DNA from: Cyanobacteria bacterium FACHB-DQ100
GTDB lineage: Bacteria; Cyanobacteriota; Cyanobacteriia; Leptolyngbyales; Leptolyngbyaceae
Direction: 5' to 3'
Assembly: GCA_014695195.1 (NCBI GenBank)
Contig: JACJNW010000011.1
Location: forward strand, 62,001-126,000
Length of the DNA stretch: 64,000 nt
The notes under the pieces were generated by a model. The model saw nothing but the letters and a program-made list of their open reading frames with translations, made no database searches and had not been told where the DNA came from. The translations under genes and the position numbers were made by a program. Each line of letters opens with the position of its first letter. Position 1 is the stretch's first letter. This document shows positions 53,639-64,000 of this stretch, piece after piece.

Positions 53639-54223
53639 TTAGCGTAATGCCGATTGCACCGTCTGGCGAACCATGTCGAAGCTACGCTTGAGGCGAGCGG
53701 GCTGATTATAGAGGCGGCTCATTAACAGCACTCCTTCTATCTGGGTTAACACTTGTTCGGCAAGCAAAACAGGGTTGATTTCTGGTTTCAGCGCAGATTT
53801 TCCAGCTTGTAGAGACTGTGCAATTGCAGCCTGCCAAGCATCAAACACCTGAATGAGATGTTCTTGAAACGATGGGTCATGTTTTGCTAGATCTACAATC
53901 AAATTTCCTAGGAAACAGCCGCCGCAATCAGGTTCAGATTGATGTTTTGCCTCCAGACGATCGATCATGTCAAACACTTGCGCGATCGGGTCAGAAATTT
54001 GTTGAGCAGGCTCAATGATAACTGCTTTGATCTGGCTCCATTTGTAATCAATTAGCGCATGAGCTAATTCATTTTTTGATTGGAAATAATTGTAGAAACT
54101 GCCAGAAGAAGTGTTGCTTGCGGCAAATAACTCCTTTAGCCCGGTTGATTGAAATCCTTGGTGATGGATCAACTCAATAACCGAGGATAAAATATCTTCG
54201 CGAGTGCGCTTAAGATTGACCAT
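53639..54223 (-). CDS. TetR/AcrR-family transcription regulator
   Basis: A 194-residue regulator. The N-terminal HTH is TREDILSSVIELIHHQGFQSTGLKELFAASNTSSGSFYNYF with the TetR-type recognition helix (GSFYNYF). The C-terminal ligand domain has CGGC (residues about 98-101) near the pocket, which could be a redox or metal sensor. The ligand is unknown. It precedes the methyltransferase at 52949 and lies next to the transporter cluster (54.4-58.9 kb), transcribed the same way. Its promoter is within 54224-54412. Confidence 0.87.
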   Translation of the reverse strand: MVNLKRTREDILSSVIELIHHQGFQSTGLKELFAASNTSSGSFYNYFQSKNELAHALIDYKWSQIKAVIIEPAQQISDPIAQVFDMIDRLEAKHQSEPDCGGCFLGNLIVDLAKHDPSFQEHLIQVFDAWQAAIAQSLQAGKSALKPEINPVLLAEQVLTQIEGVLLMSRLYNQPARLKRSFDMVRQTVQSALR

Positions 54224-54412
54224 TGTGGGGAAATGTGGCTAGCAGTGAAGCATGACTAAACAAGATTAAGGCTTCGCAGTCTTTGGATTTCTCTCGAATC
54301 AGAGATTTGAGAACAATCAGGCAAAGTCTAGCATAGTCCAAATCTTTGGGAAGAGTCGATGCTAAAAGACTGAAAGCCATTTTAACGAGTTAGATAGATT
54401 GGAGGTATCGCT

Positions 54413-54487
54413 ATGATTCAAACCTTTCAGAATTGTTACATCAATCCCATCAAGGTTAGTCAAGCGATTCATCCGACGACAGCCTAA
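54413..54487 (+). CDS. Possible 24-residue small ORF with strong RBS
   Basis: A short frame, [20 protein letters not shown] then PTTA, preceded by an excellent ribosome-binding site GGAGG at 54401-54405, 7 bases from the ATG. It reads opposite to the ABC ATPase and the two stop codons overlap (54484-54487). It may be a truncated gene, a small peptide, or a leader. No family is recognised. Confidence 0.35.
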
Positions 54488-55353
54488 TGTATCCGCGATT
54501 CTTCGATCGCTCGCGTTTCTCGCGACAGGTGTAGCTCTAGCTGTGCCTTCAACTCATGATAAGCCGGATACTGATCCAGGTTTTCGCGCTTGCGGGGACG
54601 AGCAAAGGGCACATCCAACACCTCTACGATTCGAGCTGCTGGGCCGCGACTCATCACCACAATTTTGTCGGACAGCAGCAGTGCTTCCTCGATACTATGA
54701 GTAATCAGAATCACGGTTTTGCGCTGTTGTTCCAGGATGCGGGCAATCTCATCTTGCAGAAAGCCCCGCGTCAACGCATCTAACGCTCCGAACGGTTCAT
54801 CCATCAGCAAAATTTCTGGGTTAATTGCTAGAGCGCGGGCAATTCCCACCCGTTGCTTCATGCCCCCAGACAGTTCGTGAGGATGCTTGCGATCGGCTCC
54901 CTGCAATCCGACTAAATCAATGTACTCGCGCACAAGGTCTTTTTGTTTGGCAAGCGGCATCTGAGGATAGACTGTTTCGATCGCAAACCGAATGTTTTCG
55001 GCAACGGTCATCCAGGGCATCAGCGAATAGTTCTGAAACACGACACCGCGATCGGCTCCCGGATGATGTACCTGCTTTCCATTGATCAACACTGAACCCT
55101 GCGTGGGTGTGGTCAGTCCAGCAATAATATTCAGAAGGGTTGACTTACCGCAGCCCGAAGGTCCAATGATCGAAACAAAGGTATTCGGGGTGATGTCTAG
55201 ATTGATATCCACGATCGCCACAAAGTCTTGAGAAGTGCGACGAAGCAGCTTATCTTGCCAGTGTTGCCGCCCTGGAAACACCTTGAACACATTTTGTAAG
55301 CTTAACTGAACAGAGGTATCTGTTTTAGTGCGATCGGTGTGGGAAGAAACCAT
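54484..55353 (-). CDS. ABC transporter ATP-binding protein (NrtD/SsuB-like)
   Basis: A 289-residue nucleotide-binding subunit. Walker [10 protein letters not shown] is at 64-72. The signature [15 protein letters not shown], Walker [16 protein letters not shown] and the switch His in LITHSIEEA follow. It belongs to the nitrate/taurine/sulfonate/bicarbonate group that includes NrtD, SsuB and TauB. Its start follows the permease stop with no gap. It drives import with the permease and binding protein upstream; the substrate is probably an organic nitrogen or sulfur compound. Confidence 0.92.
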
Positions 55354-56184
55354 CTACTTTTCTCCGAAAGAAACCCAGGTTTGCAACAATGCTAGTAGCT
55401 GATCGAGAACCAATCCGGTGACTCCAATGATGACGATCGCGGTAATAATACTGGTGATGCTCAAGTTATTCCACTCTGCCCAAACAAGGCTACCAATGCC
55501 GGTTCCGCCTACAATCATCTCTGCTGCTACGATTACAAGCCAAGAGATACCAATGCTAATTCGTAATCCAGCCACAATGCTCGGAGCCGCAGCCGGAAGA
55601 ATGATTTTCCAGATCGTTCGCCAACGAGAAGCACCCAAAGTCCGAGCCACATTCAGATAGTCTTTTGAGACGCTACTCACTCCAAATTTAGTATTGATGA
55701 GCGTAGGCCAAATACTAGAAATTGCAATCACAAACAATGCGGTGCCTTCGGAGCTTTTCAGCAGCCCTAATCCTAGCGGCAACCAGGCTAAGGGCGATAC
55801 CGGACGCATCAATTGAATAAATGGATTCACCGCTTTCGAGACGACTTCTGATAAACCAATCAAGACTCCTATTGGAATCGCGATCGCTGATCCAAGCAGA
55901 AATCCAGTCAGCACGCGCTGAAGACTAGCGATTAAGTGCAATCCTACGCCTTTATCGTTCGGACCATTGTCATAGAAAGGATCGCTAATCCAATTCCAAA
56001 AATCTGCGATCGTGCGACTTGCAGACGGCATCACGGGTGAGAAAATTTGCAGATTAACCCCCAATTCCCAAATGCCGAGCAGTGCGGTCAGCAGGACGAG
56101 AAACAGGACGATCGCTTGCAGGTTTTGGTTTTGCAGCAGTGAAGCAGAACGCGATCGAGGTCTAACAACAGGAGAAGTTGTCAT
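55354..56184 (-). CDS. ABC transporter permease (NrtB/SsuC-like)
   Basis: A 276-residue membrane protein with about six hydrophobic segments (IVLFLVLLTALLGIWELGV; the EAA-like coupling loop AARTLGASRWRTIWKIILPAAAPSIVAGLR). The EAA loop docks the ATPase. It belongs to the nitrate/sulfonate/taurine permease family. It begins 2 bases after the binding-protein stop and ends directly at the ATPase start, a compact operon. Confidence 0.92.
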   Translation of the reverse strand: MTTSPVVRPRSRSASLLQNQNLQAIVLFLVLLTALLGIWELGVNLQIFSPVMPSASRTIADFWNWISDPFYDNGPNDKGVGLHLIASLQRVLTGFLLGSAIAIPIGVLIGLSEVVSKAVNPFIQLMRPVSPLAWLPLGLGLLKSSEGTALFVIAISSIWPTLINTKFGVSSVSKDYLNVARTLGASRWRTIWKIILPAAAPSIVAGLRISIGISWLVIVAAEMIVGGTGIGSLVWAEWNNLSITSIITAIVIIGVTGLVLDQLLALLQTWVSFGEK

Positions 56185-56186
56185 AA

Positions 56187-57770
56187 CTAAACTCCAAACT
56201 TCTTAATTTGCTCTTGTACATACGCAGAAGCATTCGCAGGGTTGAATTCACCCGTTTTAAGCTTTTCAACGCGGGTCGGTTCAGTGGGCGGATTTTGCCC
56301 AACCTCCTGTGCTAACTCTCGTGCCAGATCAGTCATAAAGGTTTGATTCGCAATTTCGTCATAGTTTGCTTTGGCTTCGGGCATCAAATCCCAGCGCACC
56401 ATCTGAGATGAGATCCAAGCCGCGAAACTTTTCCAGGGATAAGTGTCAAAGCCAATACGGGTGGGGACATCCAGCGTGTTGCCTAGCCCATCCTCGAATT
56501 TCCCGGTTAACACAGCTTGCAACACGGGTTCTGGCTGGTTGAGGTACTTACGATCGCTCATCAGCCTAGCGATTTCTCCTCGATTTGCTGCGTTATCTGT
56601 GTAGGCAGCAGATTCAATAATTGATTTATTCACAGCTCGGAATGTGTTCGGATGAGCATCAATCCAAGTCTGGCTAGCAGCAAAGGCACAGCAGGGATGA
56701 CCATTCCACAAGTCTTTGGTCAATAGATGAATAAAGCCAATTTTCTCGAAGACTGCCCGTTGCCCAAAGTTATCTGGCATCAAGAATGCATCAATTTGTC
56801 CAGCAGCCATCTTTGCAACCGAATCTGGCGGCGGCACAATCTCAATTTTCACATCCTGGTCTGGATTTAGCCCACCAGAAGCAAGATAGTAACGTAACAA
56901 CAGATTGTGCATTGAATAAGGAAAAGGAATCCCGATCGACATTCCCTTGAAGTCTGCTGCCGTTTTGACGCGATCTTTGTGCTTGTTGGCGACTGCGATC
57001 GACTGTCCATTGATGTTTTCGATACTAGCAAGCTTAATTGGAAAAGCAGTAGAACCTAAACCCATAGAGATCGCGATCGGCATCGGCGACAGCATATGGT
57101 AAGCGTCTAACTCTCCTGCGATCGCGGCTTCTCGTACGGCTGCCCAGTTCGGCATTTTCTTCAACGTCACATTCAGCCCTTGCTTTTTGTAAAACTCTAA
57201 AGGTTCTGCGGCAACGATCGGAATTGAGCAAGCAATCGGAATAAAGCCGATCGTCAGATTCGATTTTTCTAAGTTAGTGGGAGCGGAGGCTGAAGCGGTT
57301 GAAGATTGAGTTTCGCGCCTGCTGCCGCAACTTGCGAGCGTCACCACTGCCGCAGCCGCAGCAACTTTAACCAAAAAATCTCGCCGCCGGAATCGGCTCA
57401 ACCGCACCGCATCACCCAAGAATTCAACTGCATTCGGACCAAATGCGGCGGCAAAGGCTTCTTCTAATCCGCCTGCTTGTTGGATTAAGTCATTGCACAA
57501 GTCGCGCTGTTCTGGCTCTGCTTGATCAATCATTCGCAGCAGCAATGCTTTCTGAAATTCAGCATAAGTCAAGTTCTTAGCGAATTCCAATGTTGTGTCT
57601 GCATAGTGCCCCATCTTGATCAAGTCATCAATCAAATCAACTGGATCTTGAGGCATTCCTTCTAAAAATTTCCAGTGATCTTGCGATCGATGTGATCCAC
57701 CACAAGCACAAGCTAACTCAGATAAAGAATAAACTCCGCTCGTCTCTAACAATTTCGTGTGTGCTGCCAT
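56187..57770 (-). CDS. ABC substrate-binding lipoprotein (NrtA/SsuA-like) with a long N-terminal extension
   Basis: A 527-residue protein. Residues 1-127 are a soluble helical extension with CACGGSH near residue 21. Only then comes a twin-Arg-like signal (RRRDF at 128-132), a hydrophobic stretch (about 134-147) and a lipobox TLASC with Cys148. After a Ser-rich linker comes the NrtA/SsuA-type periplasmic binding fold (about 170-500; LTIGFIPIACSIPIVAAEPLEFYKKQGL). Standard family members start near the signal, so the extension is unusual. The substrate is unknown; anion, nitrile or amide nitrogen sources are candidates from the neighbours. Confidence 0.85.
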   Translation of the reverse strand: MAAHTKLLETSGVYSLSELACACGGSHRSQDHWKFLEGMPQDPVDLIDDLIKMGHYADTTLEFAKNLTYAEFQKALLLRMIDQAEPEQRDLCNDLIQQAGGLEEAFAAAFGPNAVEFLGDAVRLSRFRRRDFLVKVAAAAAVVTLASCGSRRETQSSTASASAPTNLEKSNLTIGFIPIACSIPIVAAEPLEFYKKQGLNVTLKKMPNWAAVREAAIAGELDAYHMLSPMPIAISMGLGSTAFPIKLASIENINGQSIAVANKHKDRVKTAADFKGMSIGIPFPYSMHNLLLRYYLASGGLNPDQDVKIEIVPPPDSVAKMAAGQIDAFLMPDNFGQRAVFEKIGFIHLLTKDLWNGHPCCAFAASQTWIDAHPNTFRAVNKSIIESAAYTDNAANRGEIARLMSDRKYLNQPEPVLQAVLTGKFEDGLGNTLDVPTRIGFDTYPWKSFAAWISSQMVRWDLMPEAKANYDEIANQTFMTDLARELAQEVGQNPPTEPTRVEKLKTGEFNPANASAYVQEQIKKFGV

Positions 57771-57805
57771 GATCGTATGGTTCTGGTTATAACAACGGTG
57801 TTCTT

Positions 57806-58936
57806 TTACAGTTCATGCAGCATCTTTTTTAGCTGCTTCAAAGCTGGAGTGACGATCGCCACAAAGTAAGATTCGCGTAGCTTGCGTTCCACTTCTGCGC
57901 CATGTAAATAGCCTCTAGCTCCTGTGTGCAACATTGCAGCATTAGCGGCTCTCAATGACAATTCCGATGCTGTAATCCGGGCTTGGATCACGGCTTTGAG
58001 TTGAGTGCGATCGATTGTGGTTTTGCCCGTGATTGCATGGGCAAGTACAGACGTGTTTTGACGAGCCATTTCTAGCTCTTCACTCAAGTTATCAACTTGA
58101 TCATCCAAAAAACAATTGACGTGCCCATAGCGTTGATTGCTACGCTTCATAATCTCAAGACACCTTGCGGTGAGTCCTAACCCCATGCCAACTTGCGTCA
58201 AAATAAATCCTGGACGAATTTGGTTGACATAGCTTGTACAGGGAGCCGCCAAAATCAATTCATCCGGGACAAACACATCGCGAAACACACAGCTATAGGT
58301 ATTGCTGCCTTCTAATGCAATGAAGTGAGCATTTTGTCGCAGCGTCAGTCCCTCTAATTCGTCAGAGACGATCGCCATCAAATACTGATCAGAATCCGGC
58401 AATTGAGCCGCAATGCCGAAGTAATGTCCTGCTCCAATGTTAGAAACCCAGGGCAGCATTCCATTCAGCACATAACCGTCCGATCGACGTTCTGCAACCA
58501 GCGCAATTTTCTCAATTCCAGCAAAGTGCTTCATCGGGTTTGACAACCCAGTGCCGCCCAAACGCTTTCCCGTTGCGACTTGAGGTAAAACCTGCTGTTG
58601 CAGATAATTATTGTCACTATTCTGCATATACCAGGTACAAGCAATCTGGCACCAGGTCATAAACCCAGTACAGAGGCATTCTGCCGAGATTGCTTCGATC
58701 ACTTGAATTGCAGCCCACAAACCATTCCCCGTACCGCCAAATTCTGGAGAAACTGCTTGAGCAAAACCACCAATAGCACCAACTTGGTGCATAAAAGTAC
58801 GAGGATATTTCCCTTGATCGATGTCGGACACGATCGGTGCAAGATCAGTGCGAATTGCAGTATTCAATTGAATCAATGTGTCAGCGATCGAGGGAGGCGA
58901 GGTGGGTTCCGCAACCGAGCTAGAAATTAGTTGCAT
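57806..58936 (-). CDS. Acyl-CoA-dehydrogenase-fold flavoenzyme, monooxygenase-like
   Basis: A 376-residue protein with the three-part acyl-CoA dehydrogenase fold: an N-terminal helical part, a middle beta domain (about 130-230; RLGGTGLSNP, GYVLNGMLPWVSNIG) and a C-terminal helical part. The C-terminal helix shows GARGYLHGAEVERKLRES but where dehydrogenases have IYEGT it has IVTPA (361-365). That matches the group of FMN/flavin monooxygenases (DszC, SfnB, isobutylamine N-hydroxylase) that use this fold. The substrate is unknown; oxidation of an amine or sulfur compound before the nitrile hydratase steps is an inference. It precedes the transporter genes by 35 bases. Confidence 0.78.
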   Translation of the reverse strand: MQLISSSVAEPTSPPSIADTLIQLNTAIRTDLAPIVSDIDQGKYPRTFMHQVGAIGGFAQAVSPEFGGTGNGLWAAIQVIEAISAECLCTGFMTWCQIACTWYMQNSDNNYLQQQVLPQVATGKRLGGTGLSNPMKHFAGIEKIALVAERRSDGYVLNGMLPWVSNIGAGHYFGIAAQLPDSDQYLMAIVSDELEGLTLRQNAHFIALEGSNTYSCVFRDVFVPDELILAAPCTSYVNQIRPGFILTQVGMGLGLTARCLEIMKRSNQRYGHVNCFLDDQVDNLSEELEMARQNTSVLAHAITGKTTIDRTQLKAVIQARITASELSLRAANAAMLHTGARGYLHGAEVERKLRESYFVAIVTPALKQLKKMLHEL

Positions 58937-59001
58937 AGCTAAAACGGGGTTGTGAACAGTTCTGAAAAGAGATGATTAACTGTCGAAAATAACCTTCGTT
59001 C

Positions 59002-59086
59002 CAATCCCTTCCCTTTTAGGAAAGCTTCTGCTTGCTTCTTAGATGCCAAGGGATATGTCTTCTAAAGCCTGTAGGAGAAGGGATTG
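59002..59086. repeat. Large imperfect hairpin between the OsmC-like and dehydrogenase-like genes
   Basis: CAATCCCTTC (59002-59011) is the exact complement of GAAGGGATTG (59077-59086); further pairing (TAGGAAAGC with the later GCCTGTAGG-type bases) extends inward. Read leftward it lies between osmC and the next gene, so it may be an attenuator, processing site or the end of a small palindromic element. Confidence 0.5.
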
Positions 59087-59142
59087 AAGCGTAAGAGACG
59101 TTGATTTGTACTGCAAAAATTAAGTAGGAGCGATGCCTCAGT

Positions 59143-59685
59143 CTATGCCAAAGCAACTTCCATGTTGACGGGTAAGCGTAAGGTGTTTGCAACAGGCGAC
59201 CAGTAGTTAGAGTGTGCCACCAAGTCTTCTAGCTCCTCACGACTCGCATTGCCTTCTAAATCAACCTTGACGCGAATATCGGTAAAGCCGAGCCGCTTTT
59301 CAGCGAGATCCCCAATGCCCCAAACTCCTGTGATGTTGATGTCGCCTTCTAATTCTAGTTCTAGCTTTGTCAGAACAATTCCGCGCATTGTAGCGTTAGC
59401 ATGAATGCCAACAGACAAACAAGAACCTAAACAAGCTAACACCGCTTCAGAAGGATTGGGGGCTGTGTCTTCTCCTAACAAACTCGGTGGTTCGTCAATC
59501 ACATGAGCAGGCAAATCACGCACATAAGTCAGATTACGAAACTGTCCTTCACAGACCGTCTTAACCTTCAACGATTTGACAACGTTAGGATTTGCCTTTG
59601 CGGTTGCAGCTAGATTCTCCAATCCATCCTTGCTTACAGGGCGGAGAGGCGTTTTGACTTGCGTGGTAAAGGTTGTCTGAGTCAT
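59143..59685 (-). CDS. OsmC-family protein with altered cysteine pair
   Basis: A 180-residue OsmC-like protein. The core motif PSEAVLACLGSCLSVGIHA (Cys85 and Cys89 near 78-96) follows an alpha/beta N-terminal part. Peroxidase-type OsmC/Ohr proteins have a second Cys in a CPV motif; here the equivalent is SPV at 163-165 (YWSPVANTL). That argues against a classic thiol peroxidase. I start at ATG 59685 (MTQTTFTTQVK); the frame extends 53 residues upstream over a gap with no likeness. It is in the leftward group facing away from formamidase. Confidence 0.8.
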   Translation of the reverse strand: MTQTTFTTQVKTPLRPVSKDGLENLAATAKANPNVVKSLKVKTVCEGQFRNLTYVRDLPAHVIDEPPSLLGEDTAPNPSEAVLACLGSCLSVGIHANATMRGIVLTKLELELEGDINITGVWGIGDLAEKRLGFTDIRVKVDLEGNASREELEDLVAHSNYWSPVANTLRLPVNMEVALA

Positions 59686-59773
59686 GATTCGATTCAAATA
59701 GAACGTTCTATCTATAAAAGCAGACTTCACTAAATTAATGTTGTGCTTGTGGTTACAAATTCTATGTTCAAGT

Positions 59774-60019
59774 TTACGTCTGAGCAAAACGAATTGGGTT
59801 GCTATTGACTGCAATGAGATGGTCGAGCCGGATTTCAGTTCCACTGTTGAGCCTCAAGAAATCTGCTTTATTTGCTGCATAGACATCCACAATGCGATCG
59901 TAAACTTCAATCGTTTCTCCCAGTGCATTGCGATAAACGATCGAGCAGACCTGGTGCAAAGTTGCCAATGCTTCAAGTTGGTCATAAAAATCACAGTCAA
60001 CTAAGCGATAGTCACTCAT
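59774..60019 (-). CDS. Rof-like (Rho-binding antiterminator-type) small protein
   Basis: An 81-residue protein resembling Rof/YaeO, the Rho inhibitor of enterobacteria: YRLVDCDFYDQLE near the N-terminus, IVYRNALGETIEVYDRIVDV in the middle, and IRLDHLIAVN near the end. Rof binds the Rho primary RNA-binding site. Cyanobacteria generally lack a rho gene, so this copy may bind RNA or another OB-fold protein instead. It reads leftward 88 bases ahead of the OsmC-like gene and divergent from formamidase. Confidence 0.68.
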   Translation of the reverse strand: MSDYRLVDCDFYDQLEALATLHQVCSIVYRNALGETIEVYDRIVDVYAANKADFLRLNSGTEIRLDHLIAVNSNPIRFAQT

Positions 60020-60370
60020 AATCAGTTTTTCTGATAGTGATAAGCAGCAGTAAGCGTAGCAAAATTGGTTGTAACCGTTTGTGTAGAGACCGCTTTGGTC
60101 TGAAGTCTCAGAGATTAAAACAATCTGGAAGTACGCTGATTGATAGGCGCATTAAAGAATCTATTTTGGAAAATTGTCTCTTCCGACACAATCTCTCAAT
60201 CGATAATTGTGTTCTTTATATCTAAGATTTAACGCTATGAACTGATTGCCATTTGAATCGATCGCACCTGAATTTAGTAGATCGGTGTTTTGAGTAGTTA
60301 GGCTGGCACGGTGTCGATATGCGACGCGGAAATAGAAATTGCTGCATCCTGTTATTTCAAGGAGAGAACT
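60020..60370. other. Divergent control region of the nitrile/amide cluster
   Basis: Promoters for the leftward (Rof/OsmC/transporter) and rightward (formamidase/nitrile hydratase) groups should be here. A 7-bp inverted repeat is at 60186-60212. I scanned for the NtcA consensus GTAN8TAC and found no match. AAGGAGAG just before 60371 is the formamidase ribosome-binding site. Confidence 0.55.
60186..60212. promoter_or_regulatory. Candidate operator: 7-bp inverted repeat
   Basis: ACACAAT (60186-60192) and ATTGTGT (60206-60212) are complementary with a 13-base spacer, about 160 bases before formamidase. Spacing fits a dimeric regulator but no regulator is assigned. Confidence 0.3.
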
Positions 60371-61576
60371 ATGCCGAAGACATTGTTTAAGGTCGATCTC
60401 ACTAAACCAATGGATCAGCAGGAATTGCCAGGACATAATCGCTGGCATCCCAATATCCCAGCAGTCGTTTCGGTGAATCCGGGCGAGGTGTTTCGGATTG
60501 AGTGTAAGGATTGGACGGATGGGCAGATCAAGAACAATGATGATCCAAAAGATATTGAAGAGGTCGATTTAACAGTCGTTCACGTTCTCAGCGGCCCTAT
60601 CTGGGTGAATGGCGCACAACCCGGAGACATTCTTGTTGTAGATTTGCTCGATATTGGAGCGCTGCAAGGGGATGAGTGGGGCTTTACAGGCATCTTTGCT
60701 AAAGAAAATGGCGGTGGCTTTCTAACCGATCACTTTCCCAAAGCCGCTAAAGCAATCTGGGACTTCCAGGGCATCTATACGAGTTCACGGCATATTCCGG
60801 GTGTGCGGTTTGCGGGGATTACTCACCCCGGTTTGATTGGCTGTGCGCCATCGCATGAACTTTTGGCGACGTGGAACAAGCGGGAAGCAGAGCTAATGAG
60901 TTCTCAACCCGATCGCCGCACTTATGGAGCAGAAATCAAAGGCGATTTGGCAACGTTAGCTGCTTTACCAAATCCGAAGAATGCGATCTTAGGGCAAGTG
61001 GCAGCATCTGACTTCGATCTCATCGCCGCAGAAGGCGCTAGAACAGTTCCGCCTCGCGAACATGGCGGCAATTGTGATATCAAGAATCTGTCGCGTGGCA
61101 CTCGGATTTACTTCCCGGTCTATGTAGAAGGAGCAAAGCTTTCGATGGGCGACATTCACTTCTCGCAAGGCGATGGAGAGATTTCGTTCTGTGGTGCGAT
61201 CGAGATGTCTGGCTTTATCGACCTCCACGTAGACGTTATCAAAGGCGGAATGGACAAGTACGGCATGATCAATCCGATCTTTAAGCCGGGGCCTGTTGAA
61301 CCGCGTTACTCTGAGTACCTTGTATTTGAAGGAATTTCAGTCGATGAGTTTACGGGCAAGCAGTATTTTATGGATGTTCACATTGCGTATCGTCGCGCTT
61401 GTCTCAATGCGATCGAGTACCTGAAGAAATTTGGCTTCACCGGAGAGCAAGCCTATCTATTGCTCAGTTGCGCTCCGGTCGAAGGCAGAATCAGCGGCAT
61501 TGTAGACATTCCAAATGCCTGTTGTACAGTCGCCATTCCAACAGAGATTTTTGATCAGCCAATTTTACCTGTGTAA
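60371..61576 (+). CDS. fmdA: Formamidase (FmdA/AmdA family)
   Basis: A 401-residue acetamidase/formamidase that hydrolyses formamide (or short amides) to ammonia and the acid. It opens MPKTLFKVDLTKPMDQQ. The family blocks PGHNRWHPNIP, PWDW-like IECKDWTDGQI, GDILVVDLLDIG, and the zinc-associated REHGGNCDIKNLSRG (His and Cys near residue 230) and CAPVEGRISGIVD are visible. The length matches the 400-residue family. Ribosome-binding site AAGGAGAG at 60358-60366. It begins the rightward operon with fmdB, cobW, DUF1097 and nitrile hydratase. Confidence 0.93.
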   Translation: MPKTLFKVDLTKPMDQQELPGHNRWHPNIPAVVSVNPGEVFRIECKDWTDGQIKNNDDPKDIEEVDLTVVHVLSGPIWVNGAQPGDILVVDLLDIGALQGDEWGFTGIFAKENGGGFLTDHFPKAAKAIWDFQGIYTSSRHIPGVRFAGITHPGLIGCAPSHELLATWNKREAELMSSQPDRRTYGAEIKGDLATLAALPNPKNAILGQVAASDFDLIAAEGARTVPPREHGGNCDIKNLSRGTRIYFPVYVEGAKLSMGDIHFSQGDGEISFCGAIEMSGFIDLHVDVIKGGMDKYGMINPIFKPGPVEPRYSEYLVFEGISVDEFTGKQYFMDVHIAYRRACLNAIEYLKKFGFTGEQAYLLLSCAPVEGRISGIVDIPNACCTVAIPTEIFDQPILPV

Positions 61577-61643
61577 CCAACAGACTCGATGAAGTGGGGT
61601 GGTTCTCATCCCCTAATTGTTCATGTAGCAAAAGATGAACGGT

Positions 61644-61904
61644 ATGCCCTTATATGAATTTCGCTGTGAGAGCTGTGGCATTTTTGATGTGTGGCGATCG
61701 ATTTCTGAATCAACGTCTTCGGCTCATTGTCCCACCTGCGAAGCTCCCGCCAAACGAATTTTTTCTGCTCCGGCTGTGTTGTCTGGTGGGCTGCGGCTGA
61801 AGCGCGAAAACCCAGAGCCACAACTGGTTAAACGCAAAACAGAGCCGGAAGCTCCAAAAAACAGAAGCCACGCAGGAGGGCGACCCTGGATGATTGGACA
61901 TTAA
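61644..61904 (+). CDS. FmdB-family zinc ribbon protein
   Basis: An 86-residue protein. The N-terminal zinc ribbon MPLYEFRCESCGIFDVW carries CESCG, and CPTC is the second pair, both near residue 8 and 33. The rest is a basic, disordered tail (RKTEPEAPKNRSHAGGRP). FmdB proteins accompany formamidase genes and may regulate or stabilise them. I start at ATG 61644 with the canonical MPLYEFRC; ATG 61635 adds three residues. It follows fmdA by 67 bases. Confidence 0.88.
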   Translation: MPLYEFRCESCGIFDVWRSISESTSSAHCPTCEAPAKRIFSAPAVLSGGLRLKRENPEPQLVKRKTEPEAPKNRSHAGGRPWMIGH

Positions 61905-62106
61905 TCCAGTTCCCTCGATCGATCATTGCGTCTGCCTCTCAAGGCTATAAGCAAGTGAGTTTCAATTTGTCTCAATCACTACTTTTCTTCAGGGACATTA
62001 GTGGGACTAATAAACTCAAGCTCGATCGAATCAAAGATATAGACAGAATTTTCTTAAAGCAATCTCATTGCTCAACACTGACCAATCGTAGAAATCGCGC
62101 TAAATT

Positions 62107-63066
62107 ATGCTGAGTTGCTCTATTCCTGTTACAGTCATTACTGGTTATCTTGGGTCAGGCAAAACAACACTGCTGAATCATCTTCTGCATCATGAACACG
62201 GTAAAAAAGTTGCTGTGATTGTGAATGAATTTGGGGACGTAGGCATTGATAGTCAGCTTGTGATGGATGCTGATGAAGAAATTTTAGAAATGAACAATGG
62301 CTGCATTTGTTGTACAGTTCGGGGGGATTTAATTCGGATTGTTGGTAACTTAATGGAGAAGCGCGAGAAGTTTGATCACATTGTGATTGAAACCACTGGA
62401 TTAGCTGATCCAGCCCCAGTCATTCAATCCTTTTTTGTCGATGAAACAATGCGATCTAAAACGCAGTTAGATGCCGTTGTTACGGTTGTTGATGCGAAAT
62501 ATATTTGGGAGCATTGGGATAGCAATGAAGCGCAAGAACAAATTGCGTTTGCCGATGTTATTCTGCTCAACAAGATTGATCTCGTTTCTGCTGAACGGCT
62601 CGGAACGTTAGAACAGCGAATTCGGTCAGTGAATGCCTTTGCCAAACTCTACCGGACTCACAACTGCAATCTTGAGATCAGTTCGATTTTAGGAGTGAAA
62701 GCGTTTGACCTCAAAAATGCTTTATCAATTGATCCAGAGTTTCTCAACGAATCAGCGCATGAGCATGACGAGACTGTTTTCTCAGTCTCGATCGTTGAGC
62801 CTGGGGTTGTAAACAGCGACAAACTCACAACCTGGTTAAATCAACTCGTCCAGATTCAAGGTCAAAACATCTTTCGGATGAAAGGCATTTTGAATGTAGA
62901 CGATGAGGATCGACGGTTTGTACTTCAGGGGGTGCATATGTTGTTAGACGGCAGACCGGGGCGACCCTGGAAATCCGACGAACTGCGGAGGAATGAGATG
63001 GTGTTTATCGGGCGAGAGTTGCCAGAAGCAGAACTCAAAAGCGGCTTCCAATCATGTCTGGTCTAG
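62107..63066 (+). CDS. CobW/P47K-family GTPase, nitrile hydratase activator type
   Basis: A 319-residue metal-chaperone GTPase of the COG0523 family. Walker A GYLGSGKT is at 13-20; the metal-binding CICC (66-69) is in NNGCICCTVRGDL; ETTGLADPAP and NKIDL follow. The C-terminal CobW_C domain is about 220-315. P47K members insert iron or cobalt into nitrile hydratase and related enzymes. With nitrile hydratase beta just downstream, that role is the best reading. 202 bases separate it from fmdB. Confidence 0.88.
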   Translation: MLSCSIPVTVITGYLGSGKTTLLNHLLHHEHGKKVAVIVNEFGDVGIDSQLVMDADEEILEMNNGCICCTVRGDLIRIVGNLMEKREKFDHIVIETTGLADPAPVIQSFFVDETMRSKTQLDAVVTVVDAKYIWEHWDSNEAQEQIAFADVILLNKIDLVSAERLGTLEQRIRSVNAFAKLYRTHNCNLEISSILGVKAFDLKNALSIDPEFLNESAHEHDETVFSVSIVEPGVVNSDKLTTWLNQLVQIQGQNIFRMKGILNVDDEDRRFVLQGVHMLLDGRPGRPWKSDELRRNEMVFIGRELPEAELKSGFQSCLV

Positions 63067-63113
63067 ATTTTGCAGCAAGAACATAACCTCATCTATCAGT
63101 AGGATCTGATGAT

Positions 63114-63629
63114 ATGAAAAAGCTAGATGCGTACAGTGTCAGTATTGGGGTGCTAGGTGCGATCGATACTCATCTCACAGCGACACTCATTCTTGTCCCC
63201 GTGTGGGTAACGTTTATTGCTTGGGCATCGTTCTTTATCCTGGGAGGTAAGTCTTCAGGGCTTAAACAGAGCATTGCGTCTAATCTAACGGGAATCGCGA
63301 TCGCATCTCTCACGCTTCTGGCGATCGCAGCTTTGGGAAGTAACCCTCTAATTGTTGCAATCTGTGTTGGACTTGGCAGCGCGGCAATGGTGCAAGCTTC
63401 AAAAGTTCCTTTATTGAGAGCAATTCCGGCGATCGTTTGGGGGTTTGCTTCCACGGTTGGAACCACGATCGCGACCGACAAAGCAATTACAACTCCAGGA
63501 CTAGAAAATCCAGCACTCGTTGCAGCAGCAGCGATGATTTTAGGCGGAGTTTTCGGTTATCTATCAGAGATTTGGGGCGAAGCGATGACGACACAAGGCG
63601 TTCCCACGAGAGAGCAAACTCGCGTCTAG
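63114..63629 (+). CDS. DUF1097 membrane protein
   Basis: A 170-residue protein with four to five hydrophobic segments (LILVPVWVTFIAWASFFIL, LTGIAIASLTLLAIAAL, LIVAICVGLGSAAMV, LVAAAAMILGGVFGYL). It belongs to the DUF1097 group; the role is unknown. Placed between the CobW-type GTPase and nitrile hydratase, it may carry a small amide, nitrile or ammonia across the membrane, but that is inference. It starts at ATG 63114, 47 bases after cobW. Confidence 0.8.
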   Translation: MKKLDAYSVSIGVLGAIDTHLTATLILVPVWVTFIAWASFFILGGKSSGLKQSIASNLTGIAIASLTLLAIAALGSNPLIVAICVGLGSAAMVQASKVPLLRAIPAIVWGFASTVGTTIATDKAITTPGLENPALVAAAAMILGGVFGYLSEIWGEAMTTQGVPTREQTRV

Positions 63630-63665
63630 GCAAGCCGTGGATCATTTACACAGAGAAGAATCAAG

Positions 63666-64000
63666 ATGAAACTACAGCACTACATTGGTGGAATTGAAGG
63701 ATTAGCACCTTCTAGCTTTGAAAAACGGGTATTTGTTCAACCCTGGGAAAAACGCATCTTTGGCATTCACGTTGCCATGATGGGATTAAGTAACCATCTA
63801 GACGCAGTTAAAACTGTCCCGACTCGGTTTAAGAGCTTTTGGACTTGGGGGCATCTGCGTAAAGGTGCTGAAGGGATGAATCCCTTTGACTATTTCAAGT
63901 ACCGCTACTATGAAAAGTGGTTGGGTGGAATTTCTGGCTTTTTTGTCGAATCAGGCTATGTTTCCAAAGAGGAGCTTGATGCAAAAACGACCGCCTATCT
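63666..64000 (+). CDS. Nitrile hydratase beta subunit (N-terminal part, cut by window)
   Basis: The visible 111 residues match the N-terminus of nitrile hydratase beta: HYIGGIEGL near the start, VQPWEKRIFGIHVAMMGL (the WExRxFG landmark), and FDYFKYRYYEKWLGG with the conserved YYExW. Thiocyanate hydrolase subunits share this fold, so the substrate class is not fixed. The enzyme hydrates nitriles to amides using Fe or Co bound by the alpha subunit, which should lie just beyond the window with the beta C-terminus. It starts at ATG 63666, 36 bases after DUF1097. Confidence 0.85.
   Translation, partial: MKLQHYIGGIEGLAPSSFEKRVFVQPWEKRIFGIHVAMMGLSNHLDAVKTVPTRFKSFWTWGHLRKGAEGMNPFDYFKYRYYEKWLGGISGFFVESGYVSKEELDAKTTAY

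Follow-up and report, generated by a model that had tools for sequence, protein, structure and literature searches.

In E. coli, Rof switches off the transcription-stopping factor Rho. What would a protein of this kind act on in a cyanobacterium? The question is raised by a stretch of 64,000 nucleotides from Cyanobacteria bacterium FACHB-DQ100 (hereafter the window), in which an initial annotation, made from the letters alone, described an 81-residue Rof-like protein at 59774-60019, expected Rho to be absent and proposed that the protein has another target, maybe the RNA of the divergent operon. We coin the name RofL (gene rofL) for the product of this ORF.

Two rules on Rof can be drawn from the available excerpts of earlier reports. 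A survey with PF07073 at E 1e-5 described Rof as restricted to Pseudomonadota (PMC11018626), and Rof was reported only where rho is present (PMC11018607). Cyanobacteria are described as lacking Rho in the accessible parts of two other papers (PMC13289151; PMC5100998), and according to the available text of the first, where the word "Rof" was not found, no known mechanism accounts for the ends of about 80% of the transcription units of S. elongatus (PMC13289151). A search of the open-licence literature found no account of Rof in cyanobacteria among the matches listed. We found that RofL is real and under selection, a new branch of a known family occurring where the known target is missing, and that it is partly linked to a redox cassette occurring in two phyla. 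A Rof branch under selection without detectable rho is contrary to both rules.

The rofL gene and its neighbours

The ORF was confirmed on the minus strand, with all three peptides quoted in the initial annotation present in its translation. Two of these Rof-like patterns are family-conserved, VDCDFYDQLE in helix alpha1 and IRLDHLIAVN in the RLD strand, while LGETIEVYDR lies in a variable stretch. The gene and its surroundings are listed in Table 1; Pfam annotation of neighbours covered 60 chosen proteins.

Table 1. Features around rofL in the window
Feature	Coordinates	Strand	Remarks
TetR-family regulator	53639..54223	minus	End of conserved gene run
ABC transporter ATPase	54484..55353	minus	
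ABC transporter permease	55354..56184	minus	
ABC transporter substrate-binding protein	56187..57770	minus	NMT1_2; SsuA subfamily model below its cut-off
Acyl-CoA dehydrogenase-like flavoprotein	57806..58936	minus	Weakly similar to SfnB and to others, each below cut-off; 73% identical in L061
OsmC-family protein	59143..59685	minus	88 bp downstream of rofL; 81% identical neighbour in L061
rofL (RofL), 81-aa Rof-family (Sm-like) protein	59774..60019	minus	ATG start; helix alpha1 with C9, Y12, D13, E16
rofL-fmdA intergenic region, 351 bp	60020..60370	none	
fmdA (acetamidase/formamidase)	60371..61576	plus	Divergent from rofL
FmdB-type zinc-ribbon protein	61647..61904	plus	

Because they share strand and close spacing, we infer that rofL, osmC, the flavoprotein gene, the ABC transporter genes and tetR form one transcript. 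No terminator was found between rofL and osmC, and promoter-like and terminator-like sites between 58900 and 60450 were no more than shuffles give. A congener keeps the same gene order behind its own rofL (L061:6980-14170 against window 53639-60019). There the neighbours are 71-81% identical to those of the window but RofL is just 51% identical, and the two RofL fall in different branches of the tree; thus the slot before osmC is kept, and its occupant has been either replaced in place or is fast-evolving. On the other side of rofL, window positions 60371-63998 carry on one strand fmdA, the fmdB-type zinc ribbon, a CobW GTPase and the start of a nitrile hydratase beta-subunit, perhaps a nitrile/amide degradation locus.

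RofL is a distant member of the Rof/YaeO family

Searches with the single sequence stay below family thresholds. PF07073 gives the window protein 13 bits, so that the Pfam gathering score (27.6) is not reached, the NCBIfam Rof model gives 19.4 bits (E 0.0009, cut-off 117), and the Rof chains of the PDB match at E 0.61-0.76. The kinship appears with profiles. RofL has 23 further distinct cyanobacterial relatives and a copy on a Comamonas plasmid, alignable over nearly the entire length. We built an alignment, A1, from 12 cyanobacterial sequences and the Comamonas copy (13 members), leaving out any known Rof. Its profile retrieved exactly three sequences from the PDB, all of them Rof (E 1.6e-5 to 1.9e-5), with the next match at 2.6, and hhalign of A1 against E. 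coli rof gave E 1.2e-6 and probability 90.9.

AlphaFold2, run with eight sequences, predicts a helix at residues 9-21 followed by five strands (pLDDT 84.9, pTM 0.68). The first-ranked Foldseek match of this model is the Rho-Rof structure 8ptm (E 1.3e-3, probability 1.00; nothing under 0.001), and the first-ranked VIA match is the Rof of 8w8d (Z 9.8, rmsd 1.7, 72 residues), other Z scores being 8.6 for WYL proteins, 8.5 for V. cholerae YaeO (6jie), 8.1 for Hfq and 7.7 for the Rof of 8ptm. The Sm-like barrel is common, as the WYL and Hfq scores indicate, so the fold alone is indecisive; fold and profile together decide for Rof. In this sense, RofL truly belongs, if distantly, to the Rof/YaeO (Sm-like) family, and the resemblance noticed in the initial annotation holds both in the profile match to solved Rof chains and in the predicted helix and Sm-like barrel, which match the Rof fold.

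Among the 13 members of A1, the best PF07073 E-value was 4.2e-4 (hmmscan). None of them reaches the 1e-5 of the published survey, which would explain why the cyanobacterial branch is missing there, with the caution that E-value scales differ between searches.

For residue counts and trees we used a larger alignment, A3, of 31 rows, from which duplicates and fragments had been removed. The window's sequence is one of its 24 distinct cyanobacterial rows; the seven others come from Comamonas, Hymenobacter, Persicobacter, Spirosoma, Aeromonas, the rho-bearing genome G038 and E. coli (Rof itself). Ten of the 31 rows match PF07073 at E <=0.01, the window's row not among them; the best, 9.6e-29, is presumably E. 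coli's own. Left out before counting were a fragment (L009/L064), a truncated sequence (L010), the second, truncated Nostoc copy in L011, two records judged by length and sequence to duplicate the contigs of L003 and L005 (L051 and L053), Persicobacter psychrovividus (H13) and redundant records of genes already included (among L013-L017, L024, L025, L034-L049 and L071). Several rows hold the matched stretch and not the entire ORF, and the start codon is uncertain in L005, L011 and L019.

RofL is under purifying selection where rates are measurable, since the three pairs with the lowest dS among 12 cyanobacterial sequences (Nei-Gojobori) have dN/dS of 0.083 (L002-L004), 0.129 (L006-L008) and 0.185 (window-L002); most other pairs are saturated at silent sites.

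Rho is not found in the cyanobacterial RofL carriers searched

The genome of the window (G000) comprises 5.5 Mb and is 99.92% complete. Its sole match to the Rho model TIGR00767 reaches 23.9 bits (cut-off 509) and lies within what we take to be the ORF of the F1-ATPase beta subunit. PF07497, the Rho RNA-binding domain and the part gripped by Rof, has no match in G000, while 9 of 14 control genomes were positive. The same domain is absent from all 42 genomes of the window's order, 17 of which carry RofL. It was also absent from nine of nine cyanobacterial RofL carriers searched separately, a set for which completeness is not given in six cases and which overlaps the order set (G185 is in both and two more are probably the same assemblies); the genome of L008 was left out of this search, and L011 and L012 entered it as plasmid records only. 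Across the phylum sample PF07497 was found in 20 of 386 genomes (12 over the cut-off), all outside the window's class. Among the carriers searched, G038 alone, a 73% complete genome of another class (L017/L022), has both rho and a RofL homologue, which is about 29% identical.

The absence of Rho that the initial annotation expected was thus borne out by the genome-wide search, and the co-occurrence of Rof with rho described in the available part of PMC11018607 was found neither in G000 nor in the 42 genomes of the order. As no rho was found in the genome, RofL should have a target other than Rho, in agreement with what had been proposed.

Part of the Rho-gripping surface is kept

According to the accessible text of PMC11018626, E. 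coli Rof contacts Rho through C10, Y13, D14 and E17 of helix alpha1, through K47, N48 and E50 of a loop, and through its C-terminus; R46 was also tested by mutation. Y13A and D14A abolish Rho binding, the level of the D14A protein being unlowered and Y13A being less abundant, and a tag at the N-terminus inactivates E. coli Rof (PMC11018626). The RofL equivalents are C9, Y12, D13 and E16 in helix alpha1 and A49, N50, K51 and D53 in the loop between beta3 and beta4. All four alpha1 contact residues are present in the window protein. Over the 24 cyanobacterial rows C9 and D13 are invariant (24/24 each) and E16 is kept in 22, with Val in L061 and L062, while position Y12 holds Tyr in 8 rows, His in 14 and another residue in 2. 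Entropy averages 0.44 over C9/Y12/D13/E16 and 1.18 over the core (permutation p 0.024). In the loop, the contacts R46, K47 and N48 are not kept and only the acidic residue at E50 is retained; the mean entropy of the loop positions, 1.33, is no better than that of the core. Thus, most of the helix alpha1 face is kept where rho was not found, and the second Rho contact is not.

Y4, L15, D45, G60, R64 and D66 are equally invariant, and the conservation of helix alpha1 could be structural. In the RofL of Spirosoma and Persicobacter, from the Bacteroidota, which we take to be a Rho-bearing phylum and of which plasmids alone were examined here, the alpha1 motif is partly lost; therefore, the motif follows neither the presence nor the absence of Rho.

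Distribution and origin

RofL is patchily distributed. It was detected in 5 of 386 genomes of the phylum sample, by single sequence and by profile alike, the window's genome and G038 included, and in 17 of the 42 genomes of the order, one of these as a fragment at a contig end; within the genus the count is 4 of 8, window's included. Plasmid-borne copies were found in Nostoc and, among the records of a plasmid collection, in Comamonas, Aeromonas, Hymenobacter, Persicobacter and Spirosoma; the Spirosoma copy was detected by tblastn at E 9e-3 only. On the Nostoc plasmid p057_A, the annotation shows two short hypothetical proteins, one on each strand, in place of rofL (L011:8001-8225), and a truncated second copy lies at L011:2736-2831. 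A PF07073 search revealed no second rof in the window's genome; the A1 profile gave just one weak match, at C17 (E 0.011), which contains six stops and was taken as chance.

In the tree, the 24 cyanobacterial rows and the long-branch Persicobacter row stand apart from the remainder. When the two longest-branch rows are removed the cyanobacterial set is separated from all other rows by a branch supported at 96/89, and when they are kept a single cyanobacterial clade is not rejected (p-AU 0.495); with eighty columns and seven outside rows, the tree is rough. These trees do not support repeated import from other phyla, though it may still have occurred, the protein being short, the support values rough and the outside rows few. 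Transport of RofL as phage cargo was also considered and rejected: there was no phage match, and the 11 pattern-matching stretches of viral contigs in each of two scans encoded no relative. No tRNA or tmRNA pointing to a tRNA-linked island was found within the window.

A redox cassette in two phyla, and other loci

Seven of the 24 cyanobacterial copies lie in a cassette with globin, HTHP, MarR, MOSC and peroxiredoxin genes, of which some are up to 5.8 kb away in L011; as we define the cassette, the other 17 lie outside. An arrangement of globin, HTHP, a 266-aa protein, RofL, MarR and MOSC, common to cyanobacteria and Bacteroidota plasmids, is seen in L027:1182-6627, L002, L003 and L052. No Pfam or NCBIfam model matches the 266-aa protein encoded in L003 at E 0.001. 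The cyanobacterial cassette is related to one that accompanies RofL on plasmids of Bacteroidota. One stretch of a Hymenobacter plasmid carries catalase, the homologue of the 266-aa protein, HTHP, protoglobin, DUF2024, RofL, MarR and MOSC, with hmpA near, and the Spirosoma locus has DUF2024, the homologue of the 266-aa protein, RofL and a MarR-like regulator. Identities between the phyla are 67-73% for HTHP, 54-66% for the 266-aa protein, 57% for protoglobin, 34-37% for MOSC and 28-32% for MarR; cyanobacterial and Hymenobacter RofL are 29-37% identical.

HTHP occurs in 3 of 386 genomes of the phylum sample, none of them RofL carriers, and in 5 of 42 genomes of the order. Four of these five (G410, G412, G420 and G402) are RofL carriers as well; the fifth, G400, has two HTHP copies but is not a carrier. 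In G402 the HTHP gene is partial and contains a stop, and both there and in G420 it sits on a different contig from rofL. Even so rare a gene lies less than 1 kb from rofL in four distinct cyanobacterial loci (L002, L003, L004 and L052), an adjacency that is hard to ascribe to chance, judged by rarity and not by a computed probability. HTHP is the only background control that we have for the redox theme.

Other surroundings vary. The Comamonas copy is flanked by msrA, msrB, mercuric reductase, grxC and SelO. SelO, a protein adenylyltransferase that we take to be redox-linked, lies near RofL in two unrelated hosts (L059:7266-8711 and L012:2736-4208). In L060 (7731-8912) a WYL/WCX-domain protein stands upstream of RofL, WYL being a fold relative of RofL. 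The nearest scanned neighbours in L054, L056, L057, L058, L062 and L063 have no redox theme; neighbours of this sort are a restriction endonuclease, glycosidases, TPR, PspA and GGDEF proteins.

Proposed function

The family, the fold, the absence of rho, the selection, the retention of most of the helix face and the gene linkage are results of computation; the partner and the activity are inferred by analogy with Rof. Our proposal, which is tentative and possible rather than probable, is that RofL is a protein inhibitor of the Rof type: its helix would bind some partner that is not Rho, and RofL would thereby help to express redox and detoxification operons. The small Sm-like protein would dock helix alpha1, with C9, D13 and E16, onto a protein partner and block it, as Rof does. 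Such a partner could be some other protein that handles nucleic acids, such as one with an OB/S1 fold, a nuclease or a termination factor. As a result, stress and detoxification operons, including the run from rofL through osmC, the flavoprotein and the ABC transporter to tetR, would be transcribed or survive in full. C25 together with C9 could make RofL oxidant-responsive, which is a guess. A Rho-independent action of E. coli Rof was considered as a model and set aside, the sRNA-terminator effect being assigned to Rho in the available text of PMC9765468.

The finding suggests that a Rho-gripping helix can have another client, and RofL is a possible tagged bait in a phylum where, judging from S. 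elongatus, termination is mostly unexplained. A more specific version, in which RofL would be an antiterminator aimed at a termination factor that replaces Rho in cyanobacteria, seems to us very unlikely; if true, the conserved helix would offer a ready-made means of baiting that factor.

The main rival to the Rof-type inhibitor, itself somewhat unlikely, is a redox- or ligand-sensing adaptor: a WYL/Sm-type sensor in which C9/C25 or the barrel would bind an oxidant, heme or a small ligand, and which would act on a co-encoded MarR or TetR. A MarR gene lies downstream within about 2 kb in L002, L003, L050, L052, L055, L027 and L030, its ORF overlapping or abutting rofL in the last two, and a TetR gene closes the run of the window; CapW and BrxR have WYL domains that resemble the predicted fold (Z up to 8.6), and C25 is found in 23 of the 24 cyanobacterial rows but in none of the 7 others. 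However, no type of regulator is constant across all loci, and the copies of Bacteroidota and Comamonas lack C25 despite the common redox setting.

RofL could also be an Sm-like RNA chaperone that binds RNA directly like Hfq, possibly the RNA of neighbouring operons, which we regard as unlikely. Among the 50 matches listed, Hfq chains do resemble the predicted fold, with Z of 7.4-8.1 and 57-60 residues matched, a likeness of fold alone. The best Rof chain gives a better and longer match, although the Rof of 8ptm scores just 7.7. As for the divergent operon whose RNA the initial annotation offered as a target, fmdA/fmdB stand beside RofL in one other cyanobacterial locus only (L059), there in convergent orientation, and the stronger linkage is to the downstream genes and the redox cassette, so that this part of the proposal finds no backing. 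Besides, blastn of the 350 bp upstream found no leader of the window similar to those of L061, L059 or L057.

An equally improbable explanation is that RofL is a passenger, an anti-Rho antiterminator on mobile redox cassettes serving Rho-bearing hosts, which would be targetless in cyanobacteria and kept only by transfer. The occurrence of RofL with redox genes on plasmids of Bacteroidota and Comamonas, whose hosts we presume to bear Rho, the patchy presence in the phylum sample and the copy in the rho-bearing G038 agree with it. Against it stand the grouping of the cyanobacterial copies (with the reservations on long branches given above), the presence of RofL in 17 of 42 genomes of a single order, the purifying selection and the 17 of 24 copies outside the cassette. 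Finally, that RofL is a chance ORF or a spurious resemblance to Rof is scarcely credible: the single-sequence Pfam score is under the cut-off, but this is countered by the profile match, the fold, the breadth of distribution and dN/dS.

Comparison with known systems

Reports that link YaeO to Sm, Hfq or WYL-like folds make no mention, in their available excerpts, of Rof in cyanobacteria (PMC4012209, PMC7858274, PMC6511836). The WYL domains of CapW, BrxR and DriD share with RofL an Sm/SH3 barrel with a preceding helix (Z 7.6-8.6), but RofL is a lone 81-aa domain, and for the window protein and the 13 members of A1 no WYL Pfam match was listed at E <=10, where HMMER filters drop most matches above about 0.1. 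Hfq, including the cyanobacterial structures 3HFN and 3HFO (Z 7.8 and 7.6), shares the Sm-like barrel; in contrast, RofL has no Hfq sequence-family match (E <=10), and the Hfq fold score is lower, and the match shorter, than with the best Rof chain.

The closest system is Rof/YaeO of E. coli and Vibrio cholerae (PF07073; 1SG5, 8PTM, 8W8D, 6JIE), which shares with RofL its length, the Sm-like fold with an N-terminal helix, the alpha1 motif C-x-x-(Y/H)-D-x-L-E and the RLD strand. RofL differs from it by its low identity to E. coli Rof (22% in A3), by a sequence score below the Pfam cut-off, by a loop in which R46/K47/N48 are not kept, by the mostly His residue that stands for Y13 in the cyanobacterial branch and by a host without Rho. 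RofL is, in our best reading, a cyanobacterial branch of Rof (YaeO) that outlived Rho, or never needed it.
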